Positions 2 through 44,073 of a stretch of DNA of 64,000 nucleotides are shown one piece after another. The translations under genes and the position numbers were made by a program. The notes beneath the pieces are model-generated. The model saw only the letters and a program-made list of their open reading frames with translations. It made no database searches and was not told the origin of the DNA. The first letter of the stretch is position 1. Each line of letters begins with the position of its first letter. Source of the DNA: a virus; the IMG/VR virus record IMGVR_UViG_3300010396_000045, positions 1 through 64,000 of that record. One strand, given 5' to 3'.

Positions 2-283
2 GTACAAACGCAGGTCTCCCCCATAATAGCGCAAGCCTCTCAGCCTGCGCTCTCACTGCCGAATCTTACGGACCCATCAGACCTTGCAGCCGAGATCGCC
101 GCTACGCAGCAGCAGATTCAGCAGACCGAAAACGCGCTGGCATCGCTGCCTGCCGTAATAACGCAGTCCCGGTCTCAGGCGACGACATCAGCTCAGGAGC
201 TAACTGCACCCCAGCAATCGCCTCCCGCGCCAACAAGCAATAAGCGCCACGAGGACGATGACAACGACGCTGATGACCAATGA
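2..283 (+). CDS. 3' end of an unidentified gene, probably of the transfer operon (partial)
   Basis: The reading frame is open from the window edge to a TGA at 281-283, which overlaps the ATG of the coupling-protein gene (ATGA). About 93 residues are visible: Gln-, Ala- and Ser-rich, hydrophilic, ending in an Asp-rich acidic tail (DDDNDADDQ). No domain is recognisable. The translational coupling to a VirD4-type gene suggests a type IV secretion or mating-pair component such as the hydrophilic C-terminus of a VirB6/TrbL-like protein. That is inference from position only. Confidence 0.6.
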   Translation, partial: VQTQVSPIIAQASQPALSLPNLTDPSDLAAEIAATQQQIQQTENALASLPAVITQSRSQATTSAQELTAPQQSPPAPTSNKRHEDDDNDADDQ

Positions 284-9231: not shown

Positions 9232-9618
9232 ATGACGAAGCTAGTATGGGATAAGGCCCGACCCGAGCGCCTTCCTGTTTTCGAGACACGATCGCAGCGG
9301 CATGCTGGATACGACGCTGACAGAATGCTGAACCAGCAAGAGACCAGGAAGCACTTCTACCGCGACGTTCCGAAGCTAGGACACGTTGCAGTCTCTCGGC
9401 ATGCTCAGTCCCAGATGATTGCCGCCGGTATTACTCAGGAAGCGTTCGACAAGACGCTCTTGACGCCAGCCAAGCCGGATATATCAGATGGAGCGGATAT
9501 TCTTTGGCGTGAGCGCGACGGGCTTCGCATCGTGATCCTCGTTAATCCGACGCCCAATACCGGCGCTAAGCTGGTGAAGACGGTCTTTCGTGTGAAGGCT
9601 CAGGCCAAGGCAAAGTGA
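9232..9618 (+). CDS. DUF4258 / RelE-superfamily-like protein
   Basis: 128 residues, starting 1 base after the preceding stop. The core reads HVAVSRHAQSQMIAAGIT, then a strand-rich part (ILWRERDGLRIVIL) and KTVFRVKAQ. This resembles the DUF4258 pattern of a His near the N-terminus, an 'R-x-x-GI' helix and a compact beta sheet, related to RelE/BrnT-type RNases. No obvious antitoxin partner is adjacent, so a free-standing toxin role is uncertain. Confidence 0.6.
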   Translation: MTKLVWDKARPERLPVFETRSQRHAGYDADRMLNQQETRKHFYRDVPKLGHVAVSRHAQSQMIAAGITQEAFDKTLLTPAKPDISDGADILWRERDGLRIVILVNPTPNTGAKLVKTVFRVKAQAKAK

Positions 9619-10688
9619 CCATGCCGAATTATACTGGTGTGAATTCCCTCATAGCGTTGGCAGATAAATACCTTACATCGCTGGAGGAATTACTAAGGGG
9701 CGCCAGGCATATGACTAAATACAATTTCCAGCAGATCTCTGTGCAGGGCGATACCGGCGGTACTGTCGCGAGCGGGATTAACGACGAGGGCCAGATATCC
9801 GGCTGGTCGGTTCCGGGCGGATATAATATCTACCCGCATTCGTTCGTTGATACGAACGGCAGCATGGTGCCTTTGACCTCGAGTAGTCCCGTATTTATGT
9901 CAGGTCAGGCCGCAGCAGCGGGGATCAACAACGAAGGCCAGATATCCGGCACGCAGGGCAGCTCGCCGGTTGGCATCAGAGCGTTCCTTTGGGCCCCGGA
10001 CAAAACCGCACAGACCTTCAGCAGCGTTCCTACCGCTACCTACGGCACATTGTCGCACGGAGGCGGCGTTAACGACCTCGGCCAGGTTGTCGGATCGAAC
10101 GACGCCTTCAACGGGTTTAACGGGCACAACTCCTTCCTGTGGCAGGCCGGGAAGATGTCCTTCCTGCAATACCCCGGCGCTACGTTTACCGACGCTCGAG
10201 GTATTAGCGACGACGGAACGATTGTGGGCTACTACAGCGCTGCCAGGCTGCCCAACGGGTCTTCTGCTCCTAATCATCCATTCGTTGATACCAACGGGCA
10301 CATGACGGCAATCATGGTGCCAGGAGCTGTGTCGGCGGAGGCCAACGCTATATCGCCGGACGGACGGCAGATCGTCGGGACGTACCAGGATTCGGCTGGG
10401 CACAATCACGGCTGGATTGACAGGGCAGGGCGCATACAGACTCTCGATATGCCGGGGGCCACTGATACGTCGCTCCTAGGCCTGAACGACTTCAAGCAGA
10501 TCGTCGGCTCGTATGTGACAGCCGGCGATCCGGTGCAGCATGGGTTTGTTGCTACTCCGGATACAGAAGACCTACATGGAGGTCCGCAAGCGCTACCGGG
10601 GATAGTTCGGCAGCATACCGGGCTGTCGCAGGGGGCGCTGTTCTACGATCCGAGCCATCCGGTTATGTCGGGGATGGTGACGTCCTGA
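9615..10688 (+). CDS. HAF-repeat beta-propeller-like protein
   Basis: 357 residues. It contains at least six repeats built on GINDEGQISG / GVNDLGQVVG / GISDDGTIVG / AISPDGRQIVG, each followed by a strand ending in 'AFLW' or 'PFVDTNG'. This is the 'extracellular repeat, HAF family' signature of secreted or surface propeller-like proteins. No signal peptide is visible. The start is either GTG 9615 (overlapping the previous stop), ATG 9621 or ATG 9711. It is coupled to the transfer leader operon; its function there is unknown. Confidence 0.8.
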   Translation: MTMPNYTGVNSLIALADKYLTSLEELLRGARHMTKYNFQQISVQGDTGGTVASGINDEGQISGWSVPGGYNIYPHSFVDTNGSMVPLTSSSPVFMSGQAAAAGINNEGQISGTQGSSPVGIRAFLWAPDKTAQTFSSVPTATYGTLSHGGGVNDLGQVVGSNDAFNGFNGHNSFLWQAGKMSFLQYPGATFTDARGISDDGTIVGYYSAARLPNGSSAPNHPFVDTNGHMTAIMVPGAVSAEANAISPDGRQIVGTYQDSAGHNHGWIDRAGRIQTLDMPGATDTSLLGLNDFKQIVGSYVTAGDPVQHGFVATPDTEDLHGGPQALPGIVRQHTGLSQGALFYDPSHPVMSGMVTS

Positions 10689-13909: not shown

Positions 13910-14410
13910 ATGGACTGGGCAGAAGAGACCGTCCAGAAGCTCCGCGAGCTGTGGAACACAGGACTATCGACGGCGCAGATAGGATTGCGCCTCGGCGTCT
14001 CGAAGAACGCTGTGGTCGGCAAAGCGCATCGTCTAGACCTACCGGCTCGTCAGTCACCGATCATACGCGACGGACAGCAGCGCGAAAAGCCCACCAGAGT
14101 GCCACGCGCCAAGCCGTATACGCTGCCGCTCCTCTCCTGCCTCAACGGCTCTACGCCCGCTCCAGAGCCGCGCAATCCCTATGTCCCAAGGATCAGGCAT
14201 CCGGAGGCTCCGATGGCTCGTCCTACGCCTGCCCATAGCGTTCGGGTCGGCCCAGTCTGCGAATGCCGCTGGCCTATCGGGGATCCGAAAGACCGGCAGA
14301 ACTTCCGGTTCTGCGATGCGCCGAGTGAGCCGGGGAAATCTTACTGCGAGACGCACCGCCGCATCGCCTACGTCGTAATCCGCGATAGAAGAGAGGACCA
14401 GGCAGCATGA
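13910..14410 (+). CDS. gcrA: GcrA family cell-cycle regulator
   Basis: 166 residues. The N-terminal DNA-binding domain (WAEETVQKLRELWNTGLSTAQI, then LGVSKNAVVGKAHRL, LPARQSPI) matches alphaproteobacterial GcrA closely. A C-terminal Cys/His-rich segment (CRWPIGDP...FCDAPSEPGKSYCETHRRIAY) corresponds to the sigma70-binding part. GcrA acts as a sigma70 cofactor at promoters with methylated GANTC sites. A phage-borne copy could redirect host cell-cycle transcription. It is embedded in the small-gene operon and overlaps the next gene by 4 bases. Confidence 0.93.
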   Translation: MDWAEETVQKLRELWNTGLSTAQIGLRLGVSKNAVVGKAHRLDLPARQSPIIRDGQQREKPTRVPRAKPYTLPLLSCLNGSTPAPEPRNPYVPRIRHPEAPMARPTPAHSVRVGPVCECRWPIGDPKDRQNFRFCDAPSEPGKSYCETHRRIAYVVIRDRREDQAA

Positions 14411-15783: not shown

Positions 15784-15949
15784 TGCTGGAGTGATTCTTG
15801 GCTATGGAGCAATATGGATCATGGGATGGAATGGCGTAGCTAGCCCCGGATTGTCTCTGTTCACTATCGGCGCAGTTCTAGGATATGGAGCAGCGTTAAT
15901 CGTCAATAGGAAAGCTATCTATCCCAGGACCAAAATGCGCCCATCGTAG
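15770..15949 (+). CDS. Small membrane protein, 59 residues
   Basis: AGGAGGAGGAAAACT immediately precedes the ATG, one of the strongest ribosome-binding sites in the window. Two Gly-rich hydrophobic helices (IGFIAGVILGYGAIWIMGW and LFTIGAVLGYGAALIVN) repeat the motif 'GYGA'. The first 14 coding bases overlap the start of the antisense secreted-protein gene, and its 3' end overlaps the end of the beta-propeller gene. Confidence 0.6.
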   Translation: MIGFIAGVILGYGAIWIMGWNGVASPGLSLFTIGAVLGYGAALIVNRKAIYPRTKMRPS

Positions 15950-17721
15950 CTCGGAAGCAGTATCTTTCCTGGGATCTGAGTATGCAGATTAAATTTCGAG
16001 TGGCAGTAGTAAATTCCCCAATCCAGGCTATCCCAAATCTTTATCAGCCTAGCGTCGCCTGAACCAGGAGCGCCGTCGATCCAGTTCGCGCCATAGCCGA
16101 CAAACCTTCCCTGCACCACGCGTCGGTTCGCATCATCATCTAATGGCATCGACGACCATAGGATCCCCGTATTCGTCCCCTGGCCACTACTCGATATACC
16201 TAGAAACCCACCAGGCATTCCCGATATCTTGCCTCCAGATGCAATCTCATTGCCGCAAGCCAGATAGGTCATGGTCGCATCGGCATTGAGCTTGAACGCT
16301 CTGACGGGAGAGTTCTCTCCTTGCGTAAAGAGCATCCAGCCGTGGTCAGGAGAGCGGTAGAATACCGGCGTGCTATGCTGGTGTTTGGTCATCCCCATAT
16401 AGCCGCCCGGGATCGTCATCGGGTTAGCGACGCTGTTGAAGCCGCCAAGGTAGTCCGTGAAGTTATATGGCGGAGCCAGTAGCTTCGCGAAGTTGCCGTC
16501 CGTCTTGCCAGGAGCGAAGTCTGCGTTCTGCGTCTTGCCCATGTCCGCCATGTTGACGGTATAGGCAATGCCGTCCTTGCCAGCTCCTATGATAGCGGAG
16601 AAGTCGTAGCCGGTCAGCGACGATGGAATGAGCAGAGGACCACCTGAGCCGAGGTCTTCGTCCTTCACCGTGTTGGCGTTCGTCGGGGCCATCCCGCTCA
16701 TATCCATGCCGGCCATATCGTTCATCGCGTTCGTCGGCCACAGATGCTCATTGGGCGGCGTAAGGCCCATCTTAGTGCCTGGGAACGCAGGCAGTGTCGG
16801 ATCCAGTCCGTCCCGCCCGGTATCGCTGTATGGCGACCACCAATCCACACACTCCAGCTTGCCGTCCGCACCGCTTGATGGCGGCGTATAGCGGAGCTTG
16901 AAGAAGCACTCCCCGAAGTCCGTAGGAGGCTGGAAGCCCCCGTTGCCGGTCATGCCGTAGATGTAGCCGTCCGGATCCATCGATAGGCCTTGTCCTCCCT
17001 GCCAGATCCCGGCTGCGGGGTATTTCGTGCCGGTGACCCACGTCGCGGAGATAGTCGGCGTGCGCGTGACGTCGACGGCTACGACCCATCCCTGGTTGGT
17101 CGATGCGCTCTCGTAGAATGAACCGAACGCAATGAAGACGGTCGTATGGCCGTTGCGTGTATCGAGGAGCAGGCCTGGCCGTTGCTTCCGTGGCGTGCTG
17201 CCGAGCGTGAAGTTCTGGTAGGTCGCGCCATTGAGAGGCAGGGGAGGGAAGCGATAGTTCCCGCTCGCGAGGTCCAGGCCGTGAAGCTGGTACTGGCCGT
17301 TTGCTATAGCTCCGTCGTGACAGTTCAGCGCTACGCAATAGAGTGTAGACGTGGCAAGGTCGATTACCGGCGTTGAGAGTATTCCCCACCAATAATTTAT
17401 GCCCCACATGTCGTATTGCTTTGTCACCAAACCCGGACGAGCAATATGCTGCTTCCAAAGGAGCTGGCAGGTATCCGTATCGAAGGCGTAGACGTTGTTG
17501 CTCATGTCGCAGACATAGGCGACCGAGTGAACCTGCTCGTCCAGCATCATAATGAACGGCACGAACAGGACTTGCCCCTCCGTCCCGCGCGGGTCGTCTA
17601 GCTGGAACTCGCCGAGCACGCGGATCCCGTTCTTCTGCACCCATATACTGGTCAGCTTCGTCTCGTCGAAGCAGGCACCGTCGCGTAGGTTCGAGTAGCT
17701 CCGAGTGGTTACGGCTCCCAT
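15919..17721 (-). CDS. Quinoprotein-like beta-propeller protein
   Basis: 600 residues of WD/PQQ-propeller-like repeats: VYAFDTDTCQLLWKQHI near residue 78 is the typical PQQ 'YAfDaaTG..LWk' blade, with further blades such as ILSTPVIDLATSTLYCVA, GPLLIPSSL...IIGAGKDGIAY and STPVFY. No signal peptide, haem motif or catalytic Asp/Glu of PQQ dehydrogenases can be identified, so an enzymatic role is doubtful. It lies last in a minus-strand group with an amylase-like gene and may be a virion-attached or scaffold propeller. Confidence 0.7.
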   Translation of the reverse strand: MGAVTTRSYSNLRDGACFDETKLTSIWVQKNGIRVLGEFQLDDPRGTEGQVLFVPFIMMLDEQVHSVAYVCDMSNNVYAFDTDTCQLLWKQHIARPGLVTKQYDMWGINYWWGILSTPVIDLATSTLYCVALNCHDGAIANGQYQLHGLDLASGNYRFPPLPLNGATYQNFTLGSTPRKQRPGLLLDTRNGHTTVFIAFGSFYESASTNQGWVVAVDVTRTPTISATWVTGTKYPAAGIWQGGQGLSMDPDGYIYGMTGNGGFQPPTDFGECFFKLRYTPPSSGADGKLECVDWWSPYSDTGRDGLDPTLPAFPGTKMGLTPPNEHLWPTNAMNDMAGMDMSGMAPTNANTVKDEDLGSGGPLLIPSSLTGYDFSAIIGAGKDGIAYTVNMADMGKTQNADFAPGKTDGNFAKLLAPPYNFTDYLGGFNSVANPMTIPGGYMGMTKHQHSTPVFYRSPDHGWMLFTQGENSPVRAFKLNADATMTYLACGNEIASGGKISGMPGGFLGISSSGQGTNTGILWSSMPLDDDANRRVVQGRFVGYGANWIDGAPGSGDARLIKIWDSLDWGIYYCHSKFNLHTQIPGKILLPSYDGRILVLG

Positions 17722-18240: not shown

Positions 18241-20007
18241 CTAGCTTCCAAATTCAGAGACATCGAGCGTCTGTGGTGCCGTATATTCGGCGTGTATCGT
18301 GAACGGCATCGTCGGCGCTGCTCCGGTAAGCATCTGCGCGTAGACGCTGTGCCAGCCGCGCTCCTTCGTCCTGCCGTAGACGTGCGTGCTCTTGCCGCTC
18401 ACAAGCGTCAGGCCGTCTGGCGACGTAATGCGCTGCTCGCACGCGAAGCCCTCGAGCGTGCCAGGCTCCATCAGCACCGAGATGTACGTGCCGGCCTCGG
18501 CCCAGACGCGCCCGACGTAATGCGACGCAGAGGTGAGGGGACCAATATCGAGGTCGTCCGCACCATCGAAATCCTGGAGCGTAGAGCGCCCAGGAGGCGG
18601 CTGATGAACCGCACCCTCCATAGACGCAGGCCCCCAGATGCCGAAGCCAACGCCGTTCGCAGCGGGCGGCACGCCGAAGGTCACGCGACCGTTGCTGTCC
18701 GTCCAGCAGTCCTGCGCGTTGTGCCCCGTAAAGTCGTGCAGCCGAACGCCGGGGCCGAAATGCGTCTGGACATTCACCGTATGCCAGCCGGGATAGAAAT
18801 AATCGTTGGACAGCGCCACAACGCACCCAGGCGCGGCGCCCCAGCCCATACGCTCGAACACATAGACCCGAGCGTTGTTCGTCAGGCGAGGGACGGTACT
18901 CCCGCCGGCTAGCATCTGCGCGCACCAGATGAGGTTGTTGATCCCGTCCTCAAGCCCGTAGCAGTCCGGCTCCTTGAGGTAGTCGCGGATATAAACGCAC
19001 GGCAGGCCTTCGCTCATGAGCATAAGCGCGTAGCCGAGCAGCTTGTTGAAGACGATGGTCGCGAATCCGTTCGTGTCGCTGTCCATGCTCTCGACGAAGG
19101 TGACCGCCTTCATCGGGTTAGTCTGGTACATCGCCTCCCAGTTATTCTTTAGACGGCTCATATCGAATGAGCTGTCATTGCACATAATCATTGCCTGATT
19201 GTAGTGAAATCCGAAATCGAAGGAACTCGCAAGGCCATCTACCTGGGATACCCACCAGTTGGTATCGTTCGGATTTCCGCTCGCGTATTCGCCGAAAAAG
19301 AACTTGCCCCGCATAGCGCCATAGGTCATCCAAGCCTTGGCAAACTGAATGGCTAACCCCTTAGTATCGTCGATTCTCGCGCCATTAGCTCCTGTCGTAC
19401 GGAACAACCAGTCTCCAGCTTCAAGAAGACCGTTCCATACATAGCCCTTGGGGACTGAATTGACCGGAGCTAGCGGATTCCCAAAGGCAAAGTTATTCGC
19501 TGGGTCGGGGACCGGATCGACATGCACATATGGGGGGATCGTGTCGCCAGGAGCAGAAGGGCTAAAGCATCCAGGGTCCTTCGGAAACCTACCGTTAGTC
19601 TTGCCCGTAGCGGAGACATATCGGTAGACGCCGTTTTTGCCACCCATACGTTGGTGCGGAACATAATCGAGCAGAACATTCAGACCATTGGCCTTGCAGA
19701 TCGCAATAGCACGGCGTAACAGATCGCCTGTGCCGAACCTTGTCGGCTTAGTGCCCTGTTGGTTTAGCGTCCCAATATCATAGTCCGAAAAGACACCATA
19801 CCCGTCGTCCCCCTTCCCGGCTCCCCCTTGGCACTTAAGGGGATTTGGAAACAGCACGTCGGTTATGCCGGTGCGCGACCACCCTCGAGCCCATGACCCG
19901 ATACGGTCTAGCCACCAGTAAGGGGATGAATTATCATCGTAAGGAGCCGGGACGGCTAAGGACGGGCCGCGCCTAAAATTGGCCCAGAGCATGACACGAC
20001 CGCTCAT
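18241..20007 (-). CDS. GH13 alpha-amylase-family glycoside hydrolase
   Basis: 588 residues with all GH13 conserved regions. Region I is VLLDYVPHQ (111-119; Asp114, His118). Region II is GARIDDTKG with Arg211 and nucleophile Asp213. Region III is FFFGEY with acid/base Glu240. Region IV is VTFVESMD with Asp309. GYGVFSDYDIG (about 69-79) matches the usual substrate-side block. The catalytic triad is intact, so an active alpha-glucan hydrolase is likely. No signal peptide is seen; the C-terminal 100 residues form a beta domain. In a phage adsorption locus it may digest host capsule or storage glycan. GH13 enzymes are rare in phages. Confidence 0.88.
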   Translation of the reverse strand: MSGRVMLWANFRRGPSLAVPAPYDDNSSPYWWLDRIGSWARGWSRTGITDVLFPNPLKCQGGAGKGDDGYGVFSDYDIGTLNQQGTKPTRFGTGDLLRRAIAICKANGLNVLLDYVPHQRMGGKNGVYRYVSATGKTNGRFPKDPGCFSPSAPGDTIPPYVHVDPVPDPANNFAFGNPLAPVNSVPKGYVWNGLLEAGDWLFRTTGANGARIDDTKGLAIQFAKAWMTYGAMRGKFFFGEYASGNPNDTNWWVSQVDGLASSFDFGFHYNQAMIMCNDSSFDMSRLKNNWEAMYQTNPMKAVTFVESMDSDTNGFATIVFNKLLGYALMLMSEGLPCVYIRDYLKEPDCYGLEDGINNLIWCAQMLAGGSTVPRLTNNARVYVFERMGWGAAPGCVVALSNDYFYPGWHTVNVQTHFGPGVRLHDFTGHNAQDCWTDSNGRVTFGVPPAANGVGFGIWGPASMEGAVHQPPPGRSTLQDFDGADDLDIGPLTSASHYVGRVWAEAGTYISVLMEPGTLEGFACEQRITSPDGLTLVSGKSTHVYGRTKERGWHSVYAQMLTGAAPTMPFTIHAEYTAPQTLDVSEFGS

Positions 20008-20020: not shown

Positions 20021-20641
20021 TTAGCTCCGGTGTCGCACCGGAGTTCTAATAGCCCGCTCGACATCCCAACCCAATTTGCGCACGCGGCTGTAGATAGTTC
20101 CTTCAGCCTCTCCCATGCGTCGGATCTCATCCGCGAGAATAGTCCCAGACTTGGTTCTTATATTAGACCGGGCATTACGGACCTGTTCCTGCTGAGAAGC
20201 CCACCGACAGTTCTCTGGCTCGTAATTCCCATTATGGTCGATGCGCTCAATAGTTGGCTTCCCAGGTAGCCTGGGACCCATATCTGCATAGAAATTAGCG
20301 AAGTCCTTCCAACGGTCACAGACGACTATTCCTCGGCCTCCATAATGCCGATAATCCTCGCCTTTGGGGTTATTGCACCGATTATTCATAGCGCACCACG
20401 AAGCATATTCCGGGGAATCAGCCATCCCGTGCTTTCTGTTCCGGTCACCTAGCTGCTTCTTGTGGACGCACCCGCATGAGGTGGTATCGCCGTTCTTAAG
20501 ACTCATCGCCTGGATTGACTTCTCATTCCCACAATCGCATTTGACGAACCATTTTGTGCGCCCTGCTGGGGTTTTCTGTGGGTCGAGAGATAAAACGACC
20601 AGCCTACCGAACCGCCTACCCTTCAAGTCCTCTAAAGCCAT
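20021..20641 (-). CDS. HNH-type homing-endonuclease-like protein
   Basis: 206 residues. N-terminal zinc-binding part: GRLVVLS...[28 protein letters not shown]. The core, [21 protein letters not shown]...[19 protein letters not shown], is the signature of this free-standing phage HNH/homing family. The C-terminus is a helix-turn-helix-like DNA-binding tail ([27 protein letters not shown]). A related gene lies at 35438. It is probably a mobile gene inserted between two unrelated genes. Confidence 0.8.
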
Positions 20642-21280: not shown

Positions 21281-21658
21281 TCAACGGAACGGACTCGTCC
21301 GCAAATGAGCGGCGTTCGATACGCCAAAACCTACGGACCCGGCTGTATGCTTGTCCGTCACGTAGACCGTGTGATGACCCGGGCTAAGGCCGGGATGCTG
21401 GAAATAGAACGAACGCAAAGTCACGCCGGAGTTGAAGGGGAACGGCATATAGACCGCCCCCGTCTCCGGAGGCGACCAGTGCAGCGCGATGGAGCCGCGC
21501 GAGGGGGTGGTTCCGTAGATGCTGCTGACCTTGCCGGGATGTGGTGGATCGTCCGCGTAATACAGCGTGGGCTTATAGGAATAGCCCGAGAGCGACCCGC
21601 TGATGCGGAAGGTCTGGCCGGAGTGCGGATACCCCGGCTTATTGACGATGATCGTCAC
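21281..21658 (-). CDS. Ig-like beta-sandwich protein, paralogue of a tail-protein domain
   Basis: 125 residues, nearly all one beta domain. ISGSLSGYSYKPTLYYADDP and SFYFQHPGLSPGHHTVYV line up with VSGSLPGFTSVPTLQYVVDP and SFGFTLPSLAAGQHVLYV at the C-terminus of the 44074-45585 tail protein. It is thus a stand-alone copy of that domain, probably a virion decoration or fibre-tip module. Last gene before the terminator at 21189-21219. Confidence 0.75.
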   Translation of the reverse strand: MTIIVNKPGYPHSGQTFRISGSLSGYSYKPTLYYADDPPHPGKVSSIYGTTPSRGSIALHWSPPETGAVYMPFPFNSGVTLRSFYFQHPGLSPGHHTVYVTDKHTAGSVGFGVSNAAHLRTSPFR

Positions 21659-22738: not shown

Positions 22739-25700
22739 TCATCCCCACCAAATGGCGCGGCCAGCATTATGAGTGGCATCATTGGGCGGTAACGTATCGC
22801 CAGCCCATGGGGGCCAGTAGACAAGGCGGTCGTCTGCGACGAAGAAGACCTCGCGCGAAATACCTTGCGTAAATATCCTTATCTGGCCTCTAGCTAAGAG
22901 AGGCGGAAGAACACCCAATCCAGCGATGGGCATGCCTGCCCCTTGGAAAAGAGCAGCGCTCCCGGAGAACGAGATAGCTGCTGCCCCTGTTGCGAATTGC
23001 TCTGCACCAAGGACACCCCTGCTAGACAGGTCCCAAGAGATGTTAGCTGAGACCGGGACTGAGAAACCGACAGAGCCAACAGCCGAAACGGTAAATGCGG
23101 CGCGACCAACAGCGCTTTGTTGGGTAACGCCTGCCCCTGAAGCCGAAAAGACAATCGACGAAGAGGCTGTCGCGTTATCAGATTGCCCTAGAGAGGATAC
23201 ACAAGCGATATCGACATATGCGATCCCATGCGCGGCTGTCGATATAGCCCCAGACGCTGATACCTGAAGGACTGTAGCCTGCCCGGACGCTCCGAGAGGA
23301 GAGCTAGCTAAACCCAGCGCCGATAGGCTGGGGAGCTGAATCCTGGCAAAGCAAACTGACCCCTGGCCGGCAAATCCAAAACCTGAAAGCGCCAGGATCG
23401 TATTAGTCCCCAGACACCAGTCCGGAGACGTAGCGACGCACGCTAGCGGGATTACTGTCGCGGCGCCGGATGCCGCATTATGCTGGTCTATCCGACCGAC
23501 AGCACTAATCGATAGGACCGAGTCAGAGCCGCTGGCGTTTGTGCCAGATGAGAGAGTTCCAGCGGCTGAGAGAGAGGCGAAGCTAGTAGAGCTAGACGCT
23601 AGGTCGGCCTGATTAACGTGGCCAGTAGAAGAGAAGGCTAAGGTCGCCAGGCCATTGGCGACATCGACCTGGCCGGCCTGTCCTACCGCCGCGAGCTGAA
23701 GAAGGTTGGCTGCGCCTGATGCCTGACCAACCTGCTGCTGCATACTGGCCGAGCAACTCAGGTCGAAGAAGGTGACGTAAGGCCCAGGCTCGTTGCTTTG
23801 CTGAGCTACAACCTGCAAGGCTGGCAGGTCTTTTAGGGCAATGTCCCCCTGCTGCTCGCCCCAAGCGAAGTAGTAGTCGAATGGAGGATTTGGCGTGAGC
23901 GGTCGCCATGCCGCGATGGTCTGCCGCAACTGGTCCGGCGTCGGGACCTCGAACGGCGCTCCCCAGTTTCCAAGACCGAACGCCTGATAGCTCGGGACAA
24001 TCGCTTCAGGCGGAATGCCAGCAGCTACAGCGGCATTGAAGTTTAGAGCCAGGATCGAAGTATCGAACCCGCCGTTCAGGTCATCCCGGACTGGATAGCC
24101 GTCAATGCCGTAGTAGTCTATGTCCGTATTCGACGGGAGATAGCCCGTGAAGCCATTATACTGGTCATATGCCGGGGCATAGCTACTGCCCAGGTTAGCG
24201 ATCCAGATGAATGTCTTGGTGCCAGGGAAATTCGTATGGATATAGTCGGCCTGCGCCTTAAGATTCGCAGGGTCGTAAAACGTTCCCCATGTCCCGGACG
24301 GATCCGGGTCTGCGGTATCAGCAAGGTAGAAAGCGAAGATCGAATCAATGTACGGCGCGCACGCCGTCATCATGTTAGTGAATGTGGTATCGACACCGTT
24401 CGGGTTGCCGACATATACCAGCGCCTTAACGCCGGTCGGCAGGAACGGAAGAAGACCAGCGCTGGCTACATCGGCAAGAGTGAAGCCTAATGTCTGGAGA
24501 TTGGGGTCGAAGTTGCTCGGCCAGTTAGCATTCGGAGCAAAGTGCCAGGGAGTCTGGGGGCCTATCGGCGTTCGCAGGAACGCAGAAATGCTCAGCACAC
24601 AAGAGCCGACCATTCCGAACTGAATGGTAGCGACTCCGGTTGCAGGGTTCTGACCTACTTGTCCCGCTGCACCGACAGCAGACAGAGTAAGTAGCGAGGC
24701 CTTTCCGTATGACCAGTCGGAGATCGTCGCGGACGAGGTGAGGGCCTCGATTGTCCCCGCCGCTTGGGCGTGGTTCGACTGACCTAGCGATACAGCGCTT
24801 GAGAGCGCGTCTATCGTACCAGAGGCAACGGCGCTATTGAACTGCTGCGCTGTTCCTACCGCAGATAATGCGGAGATGGTATCAGTAGCGGATGCTTGGT
24901 CGTTTTGCCCGAGTTGGCCGCTGGCCCCCGTCAGCAGCGGTAAGGTAGCTTGACCAGTAGCGTTTGTGCCAGACGCCGCATGACCTACGGCCGATATGGC
25001 GAACGCGGTCTGAATCCCGGATGCTAGGGCCTGTTGCCCTGCAGTGCCCGAAGAAGCGTAGCTCAGCGTTGCTCGGCCGTAGCACCACAGGCTTACCGTT
25101 CCATTGCCTGTGATCGGCGCAACTGTCGCTACGCACGAGGCGGCGTTGGACTGGCCGATCTGCGCCGTAGCAGAGAGCTGAAAAAAGGTCGCGGTGCTTG
25201 AGCCGCGATCATATTGTCTAGCCTGACCAACAACAGTCAGCGGAAGGAACGTCGCAGCGCCGTAGGCCCAGTCGCTAATAGACGCGACAGAGCTAAGCGG
25301 GAGGAATGATGCAGTGGCCTGGGCGTTGTCGGACTGAAGCGCTGTTCCGGTACAGCTTAGTGCGAGGGTTCCCGAGCCTGTTGCTGAATTACTAGTCGGA
25401 GCTGCCGGAACTGCAACATCTACACCGGCTAGTACATCAGCCAGGGATGATGAGGTATGATCTGTCCAGACTACTGATGATGCACTGGGCGCATATGCCG
25501 CCGTCCCAGCAACGTGTGTAGCATCATGGTAGAGATTGGTGGAGCCAGTCGTATTAAGATACGGGCTGGTATAGGTATTTGTGTTGTTCGCCGATGTGCA
25601 GAACGAGATATTGCCGCTTGCGCCAGTCAGCGTGATCGTATGCGAAGTGCTTGCAGCCGGCTTTGCCGAATTGAAGTTCTGGAACGCATTCGCGATCGTA

Positions 25701-26038
25701 TCCGTCGCAGTGCCCGTGAAGGACAGCGCATCCAGAATGCAAGTCAGGCTGCCGGTCCAGGAGGCTCTTAGTGTCTTGGCCCCCGGTGTCGGATTAAGCA
25801 GACCGAAGATCCAGATCCAGCCGCTGGTTATGTTGACAGAACCAACCAAGGTCATCGCCTGGTTGGTTCCGCCGTTGTCCCAGGTCAGCGTCAGACCGGA
25901 TAGGTTGTTATTCGAGTTGACGACCGCGAGAAGCGCCGTAGCGCTGCTGCCAACCGTCAGAGTCGTTAAGCTTGCAGATGTGGTCGCGGTCCCGACAATA
26001 GTCGGAGCCGTAGCGGAGGCATCAACCGCAACTGCCAT
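22739..26038 (-). CDS. Giant repeat-rich tail protein with an internal glycoside-hydrolase-like domain
   Basis: 1099 residues. The N-terminal domain is beta-rich. Many tandem degenerate units of about 20-25 residues follow, built on 'A-x-G-x-A-T-x-x-x-L-S-A-x-G-x-A-x-Q'. In the middle (about residues 490-790) is a different domain (PNGVDTTFTNMMTACAPYIDSI..FAFYLADTADPDPSG..FIWIANL..DIDYYGIDGYPVRDD) that looks like a TIM-barrel glycan-binding or hydrolase domain. The repeats resume after it. The same repeats occur at 26446-29400. Likely a long adsorption fibre. Confidence 0.75.
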   Translation of the reverse strand: MAVAVDASATAPTIVGTATTSASLTTLTVGSSATALLAVVNSNNNLSGLTLTWDNGGTNQAMTLVGSVNITSGWIWIFGLLNPTPGAKTLRASWTGSLTCILDALSFTGTATDTIANAFQNFNSAKPAASTSHTITLTGASGNISFCTSANNTNTYTSPYLNTTGSTNLYHDATHVAGTAAYAPSASSVVWTDHTSSSLADVLAGVDVAVPAAPTSNSATGSGTLALSCTGTALQSDNAQATASFLPLSSVASISDWAYGAATFLPLTVVGQARQYDRGSSTATFFQLSATAQIGQSNAASCVATVAPITGNGTVSLWCYGRATLSYASSGTAGQQALASGIQTAFAISAVGHAASGTNATGQATLPLLTGASGQLGQNDQASATDTISALSAVGTAQQFNSAVASGTIDALSSAVSLGQSNHAQAAGTIEALTSSATISDWSYGKASLLTLSAVGAAGQVGQNPATGVATIQFGMVGSCVLSISAFLRTPIGPQTPWHFAPNANWPSNFDPNLQTLGFTLADVASAGLLPFLPTGVKALVYVGNPNGVDTTFTNMMTACAPYIDSIFAFYLADTADPDPSGTWGTFYDPANLKAQADYIHTNFPGTKTFIWIANLGSSYAPAYDQYNGFTGYLPSNTDIDYYGIDGYPVRDDLNGGFDTSILALNFNAAVAAGIPPEAIVPSYQAFGLGNWGAPFEVPTPDQLRQTIAAWRPLTPNPPFDYYFAWGEQQGDIALKDLPALQVVAQQSNEPGPYVTFFDLSCSASMQQQVGQASGAANLLQLAAVGQAGQVDVANGLATLAFSSTGHVNQADLASSSTSFASLSAAGTLSSGTNASGSDSVLSISAVGRIDQHNAASGAATVIPLACVATSPDWCLGTNTILALSGFGFAGQGSVCFARIQLPSLSALGLASSPLGASGQATVLQVSASGAISTAAHGIAYVDIACVSSLGQSDNATASSSIVFSASGAGVTQQSAVGRAAFTVSAVGSVGFSVPVSANISWDLSSRGVLGAEQFATGAAAISFSGSAALFQGAGMPIAGLGVLPPLLARGQIRIFTQGISREVFFVADDRLVYWPPWAGDTLPPNDATHNAGRAIWWG

Positions 26039-26445: not shown

Positions 26446-29400
26446 TCAGTCGGCCCAGAAAATTACCTGGTCTCCCTGTTCATAGCCGATTGGCGTAATC
26501 CATAGCTTTGCATGTGCAGCGACGATCTGCTCCAACTCGACCAACACGGCTGCCTCGACTTCGCTCATCATCTCTCCGCTGGCACTGAAGCTGATTGTCC
26601 CCGACCCGCTCGTGATATTCGGGTGTAGGAAAGCCGCGCCCGAAGCCGTGATCTGGAAGAACGATGCCAATGCCTGAGCCGGCACGACGGTATTCAGCAT
26701 CGTTCCAGAAGCAGTCATCGGCAGGAACGAACCGATGCCAGACATTGCGCGTCCGAGTACCGCCACGCCTGATCCGGTGACGATAGGAATCGTAGCGGTG
26801 CCGGAAGCTGACATGCTCTGGTTGGCTACGACGGAGGCAGTTATCCGGGGGAGAGATGCCGATCCGCTTGCAGCGACAACCTGCCCCATCCTGACAGACG
26901 CCGCCACCGCGAACGTAGCAGCTCCAGATGCCGCCAGGACGAACGACGCGGTCCCCGAGGCGCTCATACCGAGGAGCGTCGCGATAGCCCGCACAGGGCT
27001 TCCTACGGCGGCGGTAGCGGCAGCCGATAGAGCAGGAGCCGTAGCCGCAGCAGACGCCCTGTCGAAGCCCTGAGCGGCTCCTAAGGCCGATAGCGAAGGG
27101 ATCGTCGCCAAGCCTGTAGCCGCGTCGACCTGGCCGAGAGCCCCGGATGCCGACAGTCGCTCCAGTGATGCGGTCCCACTCGCCATGTCCTGCTGGACAG
27201 CCGTAGCAGCCGCTCGCATCGCCGGTATCGCAGCTAGACCGGAGGCCGAGACGATCTGCTGCGCCTGACCCGAGGATGAGAGAACAAAGGCGCTGGCCGA
27301 CTCTGACCAGAATATCTGTTGCAAGGCCTGCGCCGCGCAGGAGAGAGAGGGTAGCGTCGCGAGACCTGTCCCGAATGTCTGGCTTGTGATGTTCGGCTGG
27401 AAGACGTCAGCAGCCAGTAGGAGACCTGAGCCATCAGCGGCTAGGGAGATAAATGCGCCGTGGAACTCCTGGGAGAATTCCGCCGAGAATTCCGAAGAAC
27501 CGTCGAGCAACAATACCGGTAGGACTGGCTTGGGAACGGCCAGCACTTCAATAGTTGCAACCCCGGACATGAGGTTGAACGGACTGATTAGTCCGGCAAC
27601 AGATAAAGGAAAGAAGCCAATGACCGCACTACAGGAAGAGCCGATAGCGGCACTCACGGATAGCGTCGGAACCGTCGCCAGCCCGGAGGCTAGATCGCGC
27701 TGAACTGCCGATGCTACGCAACGTATAGCGAGGAATGTCGATCCAGATGCGCTGGCATTCGTCGAACTGGTCAGAGGCGCTACAGTGATGAACCAGTCGA
27801 TATTAGCAGCGCCTACAAACAGCAAATTCGGAATTGCTGTCGCCACGCATGAGAGCGTCAGGACATTGACCGTAGCGCCGAGTTGATCGGCGATTCCTAC
27901 AGCCCTAAGGTCAAGAACATCCGCAAGGCCGGTCGCGTTCTGCACCGAGGCTCGGCCACTCGCAGAGATCGTGAAGAACGATGCTGTAGCTGACGCTGGT
28001 TCAGTAAGTGCGGCGCTGGCGCTAGTTGAGAAGCCTATAGTGCAAACGGTGGAGGCCTGATCCTGACCAATGGCCGACGCAGCAGCCAGCATAAACATAG
28101 CGCGACCACTTCCCGTCGCGCCATTGGTATTGAGCGCCGTGCCGGCTGCCCGGAGCACTGCAAAAGTAGTAGATCCATTTGCGGAGTCGGTATTCGGCGT
28201 CAGCGATGCCTGACCAGCGCACCGCAAGACTTCAAGCGAAGGCGTCGCGCTCGTCGCGATAGAGTATTCCCAGGCCCCTGGATCCCAACCGATACGGGTA
28301 TGGCCGGCGATATCATCAGAGGCTGGTACGTCCGTTGAGTCCGCTACACCAGCGACGATCAACGCTGACCCGGTTTTCAGCTTCCAGTCAGAGACGGAAT
28401 TTACGAACTGGGCTGAAGTCGTAAGCCCTAGCTTATTCCCCCCATTGTCCGTCGCGTCCGTCCCAAGGCTGCTTGCATCCGTGCCGCAATGGTCGAACGG
28501 AAGAGCTACGGATGACGGATCAACATAGACGATCGGGTTGTAGCCGAAGATGGCGCAGTTTCGGACGTAGCAATTGCTTACGAGGCAAGAGAATGCCGCG
28601 CCGTTTGTGGGTGAGGGGTTGGCAGCTATAATAGTGCTGTTTACAACCTTGCTGGAACTCCCACTATCCCAAATGCCGATCGTTATGCCGTAGCCGCCGG
28701 ATCCCTGACGATCCACGATTAAGGTATTGGTGATTATCGTGGTGCTGCCGAGATCAAGAATGCTCCCGCCAGCCGGCGAATATCCATCAAAAATACAATG
28801 ATTTAGAGTAAGACTACCAGGAGCGCGGGCCGCGATAATGGAAGAGCCGCTTGTTGATATTGGGTCCTGAAACTGCAATCCGTCGAAGATTACGTTCGGA
28901 TCGGAAACCGTGATGTAGTTCGTATCTCCTTCTGTGCTCGGGAGCACGAAGCGGACGCCGTTGCTTGAGTTGAAAGCGAGCGCTTGGGTAGAAGAGGAAG
29001 CCAGAAAGTCGCGGAAGCTCTCTCCAGGAGCGGCCTTCAGCGTGATCGTATTCGTTGAGGTAGTCGTATGGCCGGAGAGGTGGAAATACTCTACCCCAGC
29101 CGTTGTCGAGATAGCCCCGCAGTCCCAAATCTGGCCGACGACAGGCTGTGTCAACGTGCCGGGAATGCCAGACGCCCAACTGGCGACGGTTACATAATCG
29201 ACGGACGCGAGGAACTTCCACGTAGCCGCCCCGTCAGTAATTGAGGAGCCTGTGCCGCTTGGGCCACCGGAGCTAGCGGATGTGCCGCTCTTCGTGCATT
29301 GGTACGCATTGCCGCCGTTTGAGCGCCGGTTTCCGACCGTATAACTGGTCGACGGCGCCCAGGCGGTTAGTCCAACAAAGATATTACTGGTCGTCGTCAT
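26446..29400 (-). CDS. Giant repeat-rich tail spike with an N-terminal beta-helix
   Basis: 984 residues. Residues about 100-370 read as a right-handed parallel beta-helix (NVIFDGLQFQ, LTLNHCIFDGYS, TIITNTLIVDRQG, KVVNSTIIAANP), a fold common in tailspike depolymerases. The rest is a long series of 'A-x-G-x-A-T-x-x-x-L-x-A-x-G' repeats as in the 22739-26038 protein. It overlaps the glycosyltransferase gene upstream by 17 bases. Possibly a host-polysaccharide-binding spike. Confidence 0.75.
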   Translation of the reverse strand: MTTTSNIFVGLTAWAPSTSYTVGNRRSNGGNAYQCTKSGTSASSGGPSGTGSSITDGAATWKFLASVDYVTVASWASGIPGTLTQPVVGQIWDCGAISTTAGVEYFHLSGHTTTSTNTITLKAAPGESFRDFLASSSTQALAFNSSNGVRFVLPSTEGDTNYITVSDPNVIFDGLQFQDPISTSGSSIIAARAPGSLTLNHCIFDGYSPAGGSILDLGSTTIITNTLIVDRQGSGGYGITIGIWDSGSSSKVVNSTIIAANPSPTNGAAFSCLVSNCYVRNCAIFGYNPIVYVDPSSVALPFDHCGTDASSLGTDATDNGGNKLGLTTSAQFVNSVSDWKLKTGSALIVAGVADSTDVPASDDIAGHTRIGWDPGAWEYSIATSATPSLEVLRCAGQASLTPNTDSANGSTTFAVLRAAGTALNTNGATGSGRAMFMLAAASAIGQDQASTVCTIGFSTSASAALTEPASATASFFTISASGRASVQNATGLADVLDLRAVGIADQLGATVNVLTLSCVATAIPNLLFVGAANIDWFITVAPLTSSTNASASGSTFLAIRCVASAVQRDLASGLATVPTLSVSAAIGSSCSAVIGFFPLSVAGLISPFNLMSGVATIEVLAVPKPVLPVLLLDGSSEFSAEFSQEFHGAFISLAADGSGLLLAADVFQPNITSQTFGTGLATLPSLSCAAQALQQIFWSESASAFVLSSSGQAQQIVSASGLAAIPAMRAAATAVQQDMASGTASLERLSASGALGQVDAATGLATIPSLSALGAAQGFDRASAAATAPALSAAATAAVGSPVRAIATLLGMSASGTASFVLAASGAATFAVAASVRMGQVVAASGSASLPRITASVVANQSMSASGTATIPIVTGSGVAVLGRAMSGIGSFLPMTASGTMLNTVVPAQALASFFQITASGAAFLHPNITSGSGTISFSASGEMMSEVEAAVLVELEQIVAAHAKLWITPIGYEQGDQVIFWAD

Positions 29401-31021
29401 TCAGGAACCGGATAAGGTCTCCGCGCACTCGTTGTATGACATCGCCCCAGTCACCAGCGACGCGCTGTCGGAATATCCGCATGGCGGGGTACCACTCGGT
29501 ATTCTCGTCGTGCCACTCGCCCTCTTCAGGCCAACGCCAGCGCCAGCATGAATCGAAGCGCGACAGCATCCACGTCGGCTTGTCCAACGCCGCAGCTAAG
29601 TGACAAACGGCGCTGTCGATCGTAATCACGAGGTCCAGTTGCTCAATGACAGCCGCCGTATCAAGGATGTCGTAGTCCTCCCCGATAGGCTGCATAATCC
29701 TCTCATCATCGACCCGATGATTCGACTGTTGCAGCGAGACAAACTGGAAGCGGTCGGAAAGCGCCAACAGCGGCTCCAGGAGAGGGAAGGGGACGCTTCG
29801 CCGCCTATCAATGGCGTAGGCCATCAGATGGTCCGGACGGCTTGCTCCGGCCCATACAAGCCCCATACGCAGCCTTCCGTCTCGCGCACCGATAGACCGC
29901 TCTTGAACAAGAGCATCCGGAGCAGGCAGAAAATACCGCTGGTTCGGGATATTGTCCGTCCGCTGGTCAAGGATCGCGGGTGCATCCAGCATCGGCAGAA
30001 CGACGTCGCACCGCATGACGTGCTCTTTTTCCGACTCCATATGTCGGCCTGCAATGACATCGTAGTCGCCGTCCATAATAAGCCGCCGCGCCATGCGCTC
30101 CATCGAGCGCGGCACGCCGATAGTCAGCTTGGAGACGTATTTCCGCAGGATAGGCGCATACCGAATGAACTGGATGCAGTCGCCCAAACCCTGCTCATGG
30201 ATCAGAACCAGATGCTTATCGCGTAGCTCGTCCAACGTCTGGGCAACCGGCAGGCCCAGGTCGGCGATCTTGGACTCAGCCTTGCTCTGGACAGTGTCGC
30301 GTAGCCGATACATATGCCACGCCTCGGGCCAGTTGCCGTTGCCCAGGAGGATGAAGGACTTGTTGTAGAGCGTCCCCTTCCGTTGTGGATCGCGGACCTT
30401 GTGCTCCAGCATCCACAGCGCCTCGTCGCGCCGGCCTAGCTCCATCAGGACGGTAGCGTGGTTGTTGACCACATCCTCGTACCATCCGCCGTTGGCGAAC
30501 TCTTCCACATGCTCGTAGCATGCCAGCGCCTCGTCATACCGCCCTAGCATATGCAGCGCGAAGCCTTTGCTCATCTCGGCGTGCAAGAACTCCGGATGCT
30601 TCTCCAGGCACTCGTCGAACGCCCGAACCCCGTCTTCATACGCAAGCGTGTGGCAGAGGTTGATACCGCGCTGGTACAGAAGCTCACGGTTGTCGGGGAA
30701 CGCCTCCAGCCCATTGACGACGAACGCCATCGAGTGGACGTACATCTTCTCGTCGCAGTAGGTCTTGGCGCAGTTGATAAACCACTCGACCCGAGGCTTC
30801 GTCAGCGACAACGACGCGCAGGCAAAGTCATATCCCTGGTCGTAGTTTTTCAGCTTAGGTAGCGCAATGCCGCAAATGTGGATCGCATCGAACGCCAGGC
30901 TGTCCTGGAGAATACGAGCGCCTAGCTCAGCCGCCTTGTGGTAGTCCTCCCGCCCGTAGGCGTCGAACATCTCCTCCCGGCGCTTGAGGAAGTCCGGATG
31001 GACGTCAAAGTCGATACCCAT
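29384..31021 (-). CDS. TPR protein fused to a GT9-like glycosyltransferase domain
   Basis: 545 residues. The N-terminal half is tetratricopeptide-like (HAEMSKGFALHMLGRYDEALACYEH; NNHATVLMELGRRDEALWMLEH). The C-terminal half has the GT-B/GT9 features of TPR-linked glycosyltransferases: VLIHEQGLGDCIQFIRYAP, MGLVWAGAS, FVSLQ, DTAAVIEQLDLVITIDSAVCHLAAALDKPTW. It lies in the fibre operon next to a methyltransferase, so it may glycosylate phage fibre proteins or host surface glycans. Confidence 0.85.
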   Translation of the reverse strand: MGIDFDVHPDFLKRREEMFDAYGREDYHKAAELGARILQDSLAFDAIHICGIALPKLKNYDQGYDFACASLSLTKPRVEWFINCAKTYCDEKMYVHSMAFVVNGLEAFPDNRELLYQRGINLCHTLAYEDGVRAFDECLEKHPEFLHAEMSKGFALHMLGRYDEALACYEHVEEFANGGWYEDVVNNHATVLMELGRRDEALWMLEHKVRDPQRKGTLYNKSFILLGNGNWPEAWHMYRLRDTVQSKAESKIADLGLPVAQTLDELRDKHLVLIHEQGLGDCIQFIRYAPILRKYVSKLTIGVPRSMERMARRLIMDGDYDVIAGRHMESEKEHVMRCDVVLPMLDAPAILDQRTDNIPNQRYFLPAPDALVQERSIGARDGRLRMGLVWAGASRPDHLMAYAIDRRRSVPFPLLEPLLALSDRFQFVSLQQSNHRVDDERIMQPIGEDYDILDTAAVIEQLDLVITIDSAVCHLAAALDKPTWMLSRFDSCWRWRWPEEGEWHDENTEWYPAMRIFRQRVAGDWGDVIQRVRGDLIRFLNDDDQ

Positions 31022-40923: not shown

Positions 40924-43900
40924 TTAAGGCTTGGTCGCGTACACCCTGTAGTAGTCAAGCGACGCATAGGCCGGAAGGCTGCCGTCTGATGGCGTTCCAT
41001 CGCCGGCATTATAGTCGGCGCCATTGGTGTAGATGTAAGTTCCCATGGGTTGGGTCTTCCAGTCGCCGCCTGGCGTTGCATGGGATGTGCCCACCTGGAC
41101 TCCATTTATAAAGCAGCGGATAAAGTCTGATTGCCAGTCGAGCCCATAAATGTTCGGTCGGCTAATATCGAGAGTGGTTGTCGAATAAAGTGTTATACCT
41201 CCTGTCTGGAAGCCTGCACCACTCCCCTGATTCCCGTCATCAACCATCTGGAACCAGACATGCGATACGCCGCTGGTGTCGGTCCAAAGATAGATATTGA
41301 GTTCAACGCTCCAACCGTCCTGCACGCCCGGGAAGTGGTTCTCGATATCGAATCCGAACATGAAGCCGTTCACCTTCGGAACGGACACCGAGAATTCGTG
41401 GTAGCCGTAAACCCGGTAGCATCCTCCCGGCGTGTTGAAGTTGTTGATGATTGTGCCGAGCAGGTGTTCGGTAATTCCCAACCCACCCGGATTGACCATC
41501 ACACCAAGGCGCAACGCGCCGCTAACCAAGCTATAGAGCGAGGAGGCAGACGGCGTGGCGATCGGGTTAACCCACCAAGTAGATACGCCCGTCGTGGATC
41601 CGCCCGGAGACCCAGGAACGCTGAATTCCCACATATCTCCAGACTGCCACACCTGGTGCGACATCCAGGATCCCGAGCTAAACTCGTCATCGAAAATTGC
41701 TGAGATTGGAGTAGAGCCGGGGAAGGCGTTCCACACCTTGACATATTCAAACTGAGCGGTAACCGGCAGTGATCCGGGGCTACTTATCACACCATAGAAA
41801 CTGGTAGGGTCGGCATCTCCCATATAAATTAAAGGATAGAGAGGGACGCCGTAGCCGGATGGCGTCGGCCATGAGCCCTGGGCTACCCTATCGATGTAGA
41901 AAGTCGTCGTCGTCGGCGTTACCAGGACGCCGTACTGGTGGAATTGGGAACAGTCTACGGTCCCGACTCCTACCGCATTATATGTGTAGACGTTCTGAAG
42001 AACCTGAGAAGAAGCAGCGTCCCACAAGGCGAAACCGCCGGCCTGGAACGAAGTCTGGTTCGTGTTTATCTGAATGACGTCGATTTGGTTCGCACCTTGA
42101 GTGGAGTAGAGAATAAACCCGGCTCCCGTACCAGTAAGAGGCTGGACCGCCATCTTGACTTCAAAGTATCCATATGTCTGCGAGAATGTTAAAGCGGTCT
42201 GCAACTGAGCGGAGATATAAGGGAGGTTATTGACCGCCGATAGGTACTGAGACGGAGTATTATCGACTCTTAGGTTCAGAACACCGTTAGATACTGTATA
42301 TATGCTTGTAATAGGCGTCGCGGGGTTGAATGGGTTTAGCACCCACATATCACTCCCCGGGTTGCCCGCATTTAGCGGAGCGTAATCCTCTGCTGGTTGC
42401 CACGTTTGTCCCGCAGCGGGAGCATAGATATTGTACATATTCAGAGAAGTGAACTCATCGGAGAATGTCGGATTATTCGGATCCGACCCGCCAAGGATGC
42501 GGGGATCACCGCTTGTGGATGTCCATACTCCGTTGTTCCAGAAGGACCACGATAGCCCCGAACCAGAAGGAGGCGCTGCGCCTGGTCCTACCCACGTTGA
42601 GCCGTTCCAGAAGTACCAGTTACCAGACCCCTGGTCCTGCGCGTAGATCGTGTCCGTCTGAGGGACGTAGGTAAGCGCTCCCGTCCCGCCTCCTCCCGGA
42701 ACAGCGGTGCCGTTCTCTAGGACATTTCCGCTGGCGTCGATCGTCCACACATTGCCGTGGATGTCCGTAATGGACCCGACCCCGGGCGTGATGGTGGCGA
42801 TCGTTACCAGTGTCGCCTGATAGACTGCGCTCTGGTAGTAGAGCAGTTCGATAACGTTTGAAGGACTCTGGACCGATATGCCATTACGGTCGATCTCAAA
42901 GCCCCCGCCCACGCCTGCCATCGACCAGTGAGCGCCAGCCGCATCGACAATCTGCCAAGTGCTGTTGTTGACGAACGTCCCGGAAGGAGACTGGCCGAGC
43001 GTTATATCTGTGCGAGGATCCTTCGTCGCCGATACCCAGGCCGACCCGTTCCAGGAGAACCACGCATTCGCGTTCGTCTTACGGTAGACCGTGCTATTCC
43101 AGAATAGGAGTTCGACGGTCCCTGTCGTGCCGGAATCAGAAACACCTCCATGAACAACCTGGCCGGCTGAATTGATCTGCCAGGAGGTTCCCTGAGTGCC
43201 GATGATCGTCGCGACTGTATCGGTTACATCTGTCTGCTGCGGAGACGCTGTAATCGCCGGATCGCCGCTATATGGGATCCAATTTCCACCGAGCGCATCG
43301 CCGCCGTAATAGCTCCACGTAGGCGCCGTCGTAGCAGGACCGCTCGCGACTGGACCGTTCCAGGAAAGCGCTCCAGAGGTAATCGTCCCGGTAGGCGTTA
43401 GGCTATACCAAGATCCGGCTTGGTCCTCTTGCCACACCGTCCCGTTGACCAACTCCAGGAGCTGCGCGTGAGAGACCGTATCGATATTACCGTTCACCAC
43501 CGGATTCCCGGAGGCGTTCAGCGACCACGCATTGCCGAAACTGTCGGTAAACGAGCCGCTCCCTGGCGTAGCCTTCGGCGTTGTCGTCCCGGCCAGCATC
43601 CAGACATTGTGGTTCCAGTAGACAATCTGCTGGACGCTGCTGGTGTTCTGGAGGACCGTGCCATTGCGCGATACCTGCACGCCGCTCGCTGTCCCGCTGG
43701 CATAGAGAGACCACGCGTTGAGGCTTGCGTCGTATAGCGCGGAGGGAATGGCCCAGGAGACGCCTAGAGACGAACCGGACGCCACTGAGATGATAGGACC
43801 GACAGATGGGACAGTCGTTGCCGAGGAACTGTTGACCCGTGTGTTCTGCGCGGACTCAATGATAGAGCTGGCACTCGTTATGACCGGCCCAACAACGCTC

Positions 43901-44073
43901 GGGGCCGACTTAATACCAAGGACGGTATCCTGAGCCGTGATCCGGAAGAAAAAGCCTGTGCTGCTGGAAAGCCCGCTGACGATGTCGGTCGTAGCGGAGA
44001 ACGGCGAGCCGGAGACTGTCGTCCAAGGACCGGATGAAGCGAGAGCCTCTTCTACGATGTAGTTAACGCCCAT
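40924..44073 (-). CDS. Tail fibre with FN3 modules and two GH16-like lectin domains
   Basis: 1049 residues. The N-terminal FN3-like domain is a paralogue of that in the neighbouring fibre. Linker modules (TPGSGSFTDSFGNAWSLNASG and relatives) repeat at least three times to about residue 500. Two concanavalin-like GH16-type domains follow (about 535-785 and 790-1049), starting FSDEFTS and FDDEFSS. The GH16 catalytic motif ExDxxE reads QIDVIQ (663-668) in the first and VELNIY in the second. Both look catalytically dead, so glycan binding is more likely than cleavage. Confidence 0.8.
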   Translation of the reverse strand: MGVNYIVEEALASSGPWTTVSGSPFSATTDIVSGLSSSTGFFFRITAQDTVLGIKSAPSVVGPVITSASSIIESAQNTRVNSSSATTVPSVGPIISVASGSSLGVSWAIPSALYDASLNAWSLYASGTASGVQVSRNGTVLQNTSSVQQIVYWNHNVWMLAGTTTPKATPGSGSFTDSFGNAWSLNASGNPVVNGNIDTVSHAQLLELVNGTVWQEDQAGSWYSLTPTGTITSGALSWNGPVASGPATTAPTWSYYGGDALGGNWIPYSGDPAITASPQQTDVTDTVATIIGTQGTSWQINSAGQVVHGGVSDSGTTGTVELLFWNSTVYRKTNANAWFSWNGSAWVSATKDPRTDITLGQSPSGTFVNNSTWQIVDAAGAHWSMAGVGGGFEIDRNGISVQSPSNVIELLYYQSAVYQATLVTIATITPGVGSITDIHGNVWTIDASGNVLENGTAVPGGGGTGALTYVPQTDTIYAQDQGSGNWYFWNGSTWVGPGAAPPSGSGLSWSFWNNGVWTSTSGDPRILGGSDPNNPTFSDEFTSLNMYNIYAPAAGQTWQPAEDYAPLNAGNPGSDMWVLNPFNPATPITSIYTVSNGVLNLRVDNTPSQYLSAVNNLPYISAQLQTALTFSQTYGYFEVKMAVQPLTGTGAGFILYSTQGANQIDVIQINTNQTSFQAGGFALWDAASSQVLQNVYTYNAVGVGTVDCSQFHQYGVLVTPTTTTFYIDRVAQGSWPTPSGYGVPLYPLIYMGDADPTSFYGVISSPGSLPVTAQFEYVKVWNAFPGSTPISAIFDDEFSSGSWMSHQVWQSGDMWEFSVPGSPGGSTTGVSTWWVNPIATPSASSLYSLVSGALRLGVMVNPGGLGITEHLLGTIINNFNTPGGCYRVYGYHEFSVSVPKVNGFMFGFDIENHFPGVQDGWSVELNIYLWTDTSGVSHVWFQMVDDGNQGSGAGFQTGGITLYSTTTLDISRPNIYGLDWQSDFIRCFINGVQVGTSHATPGGDWKTQPMGTYIYTNGADYNAGDGTPSDGSLPAYASLDYYRVYATKP

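Follow-up and report, generated by a model that had tools for sequence, protein, structure and literature searches.

A phage-borne GH13 alpha-amylase homologue with an intact catalytic triad and a non-canonical active site

Introduction

The GH13 amylases that can be compared most directly with the protein described here are cellular, namely the Pyrococcus-type enzymes (PDB 1mwo and 3qgv, which we take to belong to subfamily GH13_7) and a homologue encoded on a Persicobacter plasmid (CP012852; 32-33% identity). These are homologous to the phage protein over the catalytic core and the C-terminal beta domain, and share with it the catalytic Asp/Glu/Asp and Arg as well as a short domain B. Unlike the phage protein, however, they keep the Asn-His pairs of regions I and IV, and they lack its extra 129-residue C-terminal domain.

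Active-site changes are also seen in related enzymes. Seven residues are conserved across GH13 motifs I to IV, and the sole difference that sets the GH70 family apart from GH13 among them is a His to Gln replacement in motif I; in GH70, direct bonds to the subsite -1 sugar are made by this Gln and by the motif IV His (PMC4919382). The region I Gln of GH70 glucansucrases and 4,6-alpha-glucanotransferases is also found in the phage protein. Within GH13, the BmaN1 group has an aberrant triad and is, like the phage protein, a natural variant with active-site replacements, which illustrates that an unusual active site need not abolish activity in a GH13 enzyme (PMC5347038); yet BmaN1 has lost catalytic carboxylates, whereas the phage protein keeps these and has lost binding histidines.

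Among viruses, GH13 is listed with the auxiliary genes of viromes (PMC6460857), so a phage GH13 gene is not new as such. The isolated Enterococcus phage vB_Efm_LG62 (OP018674) also has one, near its lysis module, with canonical DLVINH and SHD motifs; it belongs to another GH13 branch and is only 15-21% identical to the phage protein. Finally, tail tubular protein A (gp31) of Klebsiella phage KP32 is reported to be a virion protein that hydrolyses maltose and starch (PMC5741709). This is a tail tubular structural protein, unlike the GH13 protein, and is likened to it by its reported activity.

Results and Discussion

A myovirus record, probably from an alphaproteobacterial host

The window analyzed here (64,000 nucleotides) is part of a virus record of 93,589 bases. 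It encodes a DUF3383 sheath, a tape measure protein with a tail lysozyme, a baseplate hub, a J protein and a DUF2612 protein, and the same record includes, beyond the window, the major head protein, protease, portal and large terminase, a gene content that identifies it as a myovirus. The sheath is nearest to those of Bordetella, Burkholderia, Providencia and Acinetobacter phages (44-51%). The host is probably alphaproteobacterial, because the record carries a MobF relaxase and a homologue of the cell-cycle regulator GcrA:

13910-14410, plus strand: GcrA cell-cycle regulator homologue (PF07750, 9e-31)

A relative of this GcrA homologue also occurs in L015 (4542-5045). The left end of the record includes a TraG/VirD4-type coupling protein (280-2067, plus strand) and the MobF/TrwC relaxase with its helicase domain (3740-7042, minus strand), and a HAF-repeat protein is encoded at 9615-10688 (plus strand). 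The relaxase, nearest to plasmid relaxases of Lichenicola, Skermanella, Roseomonas and Acetobacter, was found in 978 plasmid records and in no phage record searched. The record could represent a phage-plasmid with a DNA-mobilization module; alternatively, phage DNA may have become joined to that of a plasmid or integrative element.

A strongly diverged GH13 homologue

A first-pass annotation had placed a GH13 alpha-amylase gene with an intact triad at 18241-20007, and these coordinates correspond to a frame of exactly 588 codons on the minus strand. The frame is unbroken, without stop or frameshift, and tightly spaced to its neighbors; a good ribosome-binding site (AAGGAG type) precedes the ATG, and 13 bases separate the gene start from the stop of the preceding gene. 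Its parts are as follows:

18241..20007, minus strand: GH13 amylase-like protein, 588 aa (ORF list, NCBIfam, PDB phmmer, ribosome-binding site)
19651..19668, minus strand: region I, DYVPHQ, residues 114-119; retains Asp, with His118 in place of Asn and Gln119 in place of His (alignment with 13 homologues)
19357..19383, minus strand: region II, GARIDDTKG, residues 209-217; retains Arg211 and the nucleophile, Asp213 (alignment)
19285..19302, minus strand: region III, FFFGEY, residues 236-241; acid/base Glu240 kept (alignment)
19081..19098, minus strand: region IV, FVESMD, residues 304-309; stabilizer Asp309 kept, His replaced by Met308 and Asn by Ser307 (alignment)
18634..18792, minus strand: amylase C-terminal beta domain, residues 406-458 (Pfam PF09154, 26.5 bits, cut-off 21)
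18244..18630, minus strand: additional C-terminal domain, residues 460-588; beta-rich according to a low-confidence model, unmatched in PDB and among the homologues

The GH13 assignment was upheld by several searches, with similarity across the catalytic core to NCBIfam NF006970 (E=1.3e-60 over residues 28-459), to the solved structures 4uzu (6.3e-25) and the Pyrococcus-type amylase 1mwo (1.2e-24) by phmmer against PDB, and to bacterial plasmid-borne amylases (best match 2e-29, 28% identity), as well as the above-threshold match to Alpha-amy_C_pro (PF09154). The nucleophile, acid/base and stabilizer of the family are found at Asp213, Glu240 and Asp309, with Arg211 two residues before the nucleophile. 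Judged by these comparisons, the product is a genuine homologue of GH13 alpha-amylases. It is also strongly diverged, since the Pfam catalytic-domain model (PF00128) reaches only E=0.1, below its gathering threshold; the NF006970 score, 205.5 bits, likewise falls below the equivalog cut-off of 516 bits.

A tblastn search with the protein against 50,697 phage records returned no match at 1e-5 (one meaningless match at E=9), which agrees, for this protein, with the expectation that such enzymes are rare in phages. A more typical amylase used as query matched 18 phage records, which all come from Listeria, Enterococcus, Staphylococcus or faecal phages and include the annotated alpha-amylase-family gene of Enterococcus phage LG62, with its canonical motifs. 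In PHROGs, neither the phage protein nor ordinary GH13 amylases of its type have a matching family, and five IMG/VR scans with different GH13 queries yielded no phage-borne relative, although these scans rely on patterns of short peptides and would overlook more distant ones. Two isolated candidates were set aside: the only viral-contig match (L012) is, by inspection, a bacterial GH13 amylase flanking a prophage rather than a phage gene, and the only genome-collection match (L008) is a chance match within a membrane protein. The GH13 gene is also absent from two IMG/VR relatives of the phage (91% and 49% sheath identity), though the first of these is a 12.5-kb fragment ending at the baseplate.

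Catalytic acids retained, subsite -1 histidines replaced

We aligned the active site with 13 homologues, which include plasmid- and genome-encoded amylases of cellular origin as well as the Enterococcus phage GH13 gene. Asp114, Arg211, Asp213, Glu240 and Asp309 all stand in conserved columns (one of the 13, the distant Enterococcus phage protein, is misaligned at Glu240), so that the triad and its numbering were correctly called. That all four GH13 regions are present is true of regions II and III; in regions I and IV, functional positions have degenerated, the sequences reading DYVPHQ and FVESMD where DxVxNH and FVxNHD are expected. Position 118 is His in the phage protein and Asn in every homologue, and positions 119 and 308 are Gln and Met where all 13 have His. 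The two histidines of a canonical alpha-amylase (EC 3.2.1.1) active site, that of region I at subsite -1 and that of region IV before the stabilizer, are therefore both missing, and five of the seven residues conserved across the GH13 motifs are kept (counted as in PMC4919382). A sequencing error behind Met308 is unlikely, as ATG differs from the His codons CAT and CAC at all three positions.

Overall, the alignment describes an active site with an intact triad that is nevertheless not canonical, a point the first-pass annotation had missed: a phage GH13 protein with its catalytic acids in place and both subsite -1 histidines replaced. Mutating these histidines in other amylases strongly lowers activity, and a region IV Met has, to our knowledge, no clear precedent. 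Since both substrate-binding histidines are lost, ordinary alpha-amylase activity of the phage protein is uncertain.

The same replacements, together with that of the region I Asn, could be taken as the mark of a non-catalytic alpha-glucan-binding adhesin, in which the barrel serves as a groove for a host surface glycan or glycogen and little or no catalysis is left. GH13-like non-enzymes do exist, as described for the rBAT and 4F2hc ectodomains (PMC8537225). However, a mere binder would have little reason to keep three catalytic carboxylates and Arg211, and we consider this reading rather improbable.

Alternatively, an altered subsite -1 might favor transfer, making the protein a transglucosylase that remodels surface glucan or glycogen, for instance to change a receptor after infection. 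Such a role would fit the region I Gln, which is the one GH70-specific change among the seven motif residues and contacts the sugar (PMC4919382), the weak match of the N-terminal part to GH70 (7zc0, 8e-8, in the PDB search), and the FkbM methyltransferase and GT9-like protein encoded in the same gene run. Yet only half of the GH70 combination is present: GH70 enzymes pair the region I Gln with a retained region IV His (H1135; PMC4919382), where the phage protein has Met. GH13 amylases also match it far better than GH70 does in the PDB search, and a transglucosylase thus seems quite unlikely.

Location in the late gene block

The gene lies near the far end of a late minus-strand block that runs from the structural genes to 15.9 kb. 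This block starts with the sheath, tape measure, baseplate and a GH16 tail protein, followed by large fibre-like proteins; toward the GH13 gene come a papain-like peptidase and a small DUF2612-tail-domain protein, a lipoprotein and an HNH-like gene, and after it a 115-aa protein, a small membrane protein and a propeller-like protein. The neighbors most relevant here are:

40924..44073, minus strand: tail-module protein, 1049 aa, GH16 domain at residues 597-740 (PF00722, 7.7e-9)
22739-26038, minus strand: 1099-aa fibre-like protein; one domain recurs in two head-module proteins (L002, 4059-5540 and 15703-16548)
20021..20641, minus strand: HNH-endonuclease-like protein directly upstream, named by inspection; similar to the product of 35438-36208 (plus strand), without a Pfam match
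15919..17721, minus strand: propeller-like protein, 600 aa, downstream in the same gene run (weak PQQ match, PF01011, E=0.053)

The GH16 domain is a predicted second glycan-active domain of the same phage, and its 1049-aa protein had no match in the 50,697 phage records. The propeller-like protein had no relatives in phage records or in one IMG/VR scan. Domains are also shared between the two fibre-like proteins, 984 and 1099 aa long, and the small protein at 21281-21658 carries the C-terminal domain of the DUF2612 tail protein. Elsewhere in the late run, a TPR/GT9-like protein and the FkbM methyltransferase are encoded side by side (29384-32436, minus strand), and a group I intron-type endonuclease-like gene (58746-59687, plus strand) lies antisense between tail genes, adjoining the sheath gene.

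The GH13 gene had been assigned to an adsorption locus, and it does share a co-oriented late run with nearby fibre-like genes; its immediate surroundings, with HNH-like, lipoprotein and small membrane genes, are less in keeping with this. The run is not purely structural, because the papain-like peptidase, the lipoprotein and the HNH-like gene separate the fibre genes from the GH13 gene, and it is compatible with an adsorption module, a lysis/envelope module or a mixture of both. From the position in the late block, a virion enzyme is plausible, while the alpha-glucan capsule proposed as its substrate is conjecture.

In line with the earlier annotation, hydropathy indicated no signal peptide, hydrophobic N-terminus or membrane segment. 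This would also suit an intracellular auxiliary metabolic enzyme breaking down host glycogen during infection, as viral GH13 genes from mangrove and rumen viromes have been interpreted (PMC6460857), and the GH13 gene of Enterococcus phage LG62 lies near a DNA polymerase gene. We nonetheless regard such a role as unlikely here, given a gene at the end of the late block rather than in an early or metabolic region, an altered active site, and no other glycogen-pathway genes noticed in the record.

Residues 460-588 matched neither solved structures (PDB) nor homologues. This C-terminal domain could be a virion anchor, although no virion-anchoring domain was recognized in the GH13 protein, nor any domain in common with structural proteins of the phage. 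Structure prediction was poor because close relatives are lacking: AlphaFold reached a pLDDT of 32 from the single sequence and of 39 from an alignment of two rows, and in the second model strands and helices alternate at a confidence too low to be trusted for a (beta/alpha)8 barrel.

A composition step within the gene

Third-position GC steps from 0.58 to 0.80 near codon 288 (window position 19144) of the GH13 gene, with a log-likelihood ratio of 17.7 (none of 500 permutations exceeded 8.4, and no other long gene exceeded 8.1). The step is weaker but remains significant when only fourfold sites are counted (p=0.001), with one other gene, the relaxase, showing a step of similar size. This step, and the likeness in composition of the 5' part to the upstream HNH-like gene, suggest recombination within or beside the GH13 gene. 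The best relative also differs by half (4uzu for the N-terminal half, 1mwo for the C-terminal half); a protein-level chimera suspected on this basis found no support in a column-wise permutation test (p=0.55), and only the nucleotide step stands.

With conserved residues lost and an HNH-like gene adjoining, the step might point to a decaying passenger gene gained by recombination and without present function. An intact 588-codon frame with its ribosome-binding site, tight spacing and freedom from stops or frameshifts, together with the kept catalytic carboxylates, argues against decay, which appears very unlikely.

A tentative role at the host surface

Our preferred reading, to which we give a probability of about 0.4, is that this diverged GH13 protein is expressed late by an alphaproteobacterial myovirus and acts on alpha-glucosidic sugars of the host surface, either virion-borne or released at lysis. 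It is supported by the GH13 homology over residues 28-459, the kept carboxylates, the position in the block, the additional C-terminal domain and the absence of a signal peptide; a run that is not purely structural, the lack of a recognized anchoring domain and the low AlphaFold confidence count against it. Under this reading, the protein would be made together with the late genes, and its barrel groove would bind an alpha-glucan or alpha-glucoside. The usual double-displacement chemistry would then fall to Asp213 and Glu240, with Asp309 stabilizing the transition state. Because Gln119 and Met308 stand in for the two subsite -1 histidines, turnover of plain starch would probably be low, or specificity changed. 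The target would be alpha-glucosidic sugars on the host cell surface, reached by a protein that may sit on the virion or be freed at lysis.

It is tempting to speculate further that a GH13 barrel with this new subsite -1 (Gln119/Met308) works at the virion or at lysis as a transferase or adhesin of a new specificity for an alpha-glucan or alpha-glucoside, unlike known GH13 subfamilies, although we hold this to be somewhat doubtful.

Conclusions

If the protein is active, GH13 chemistry would be possible without both subsite -1 histidines, and an alpha-glucan-directed tool would be added to the known glycan-active proteins of phages. If it is inactive, it would stand as a warning that an intact triad is not enough to call such viral genes alpha-amylase auxiliary metabolic genes.
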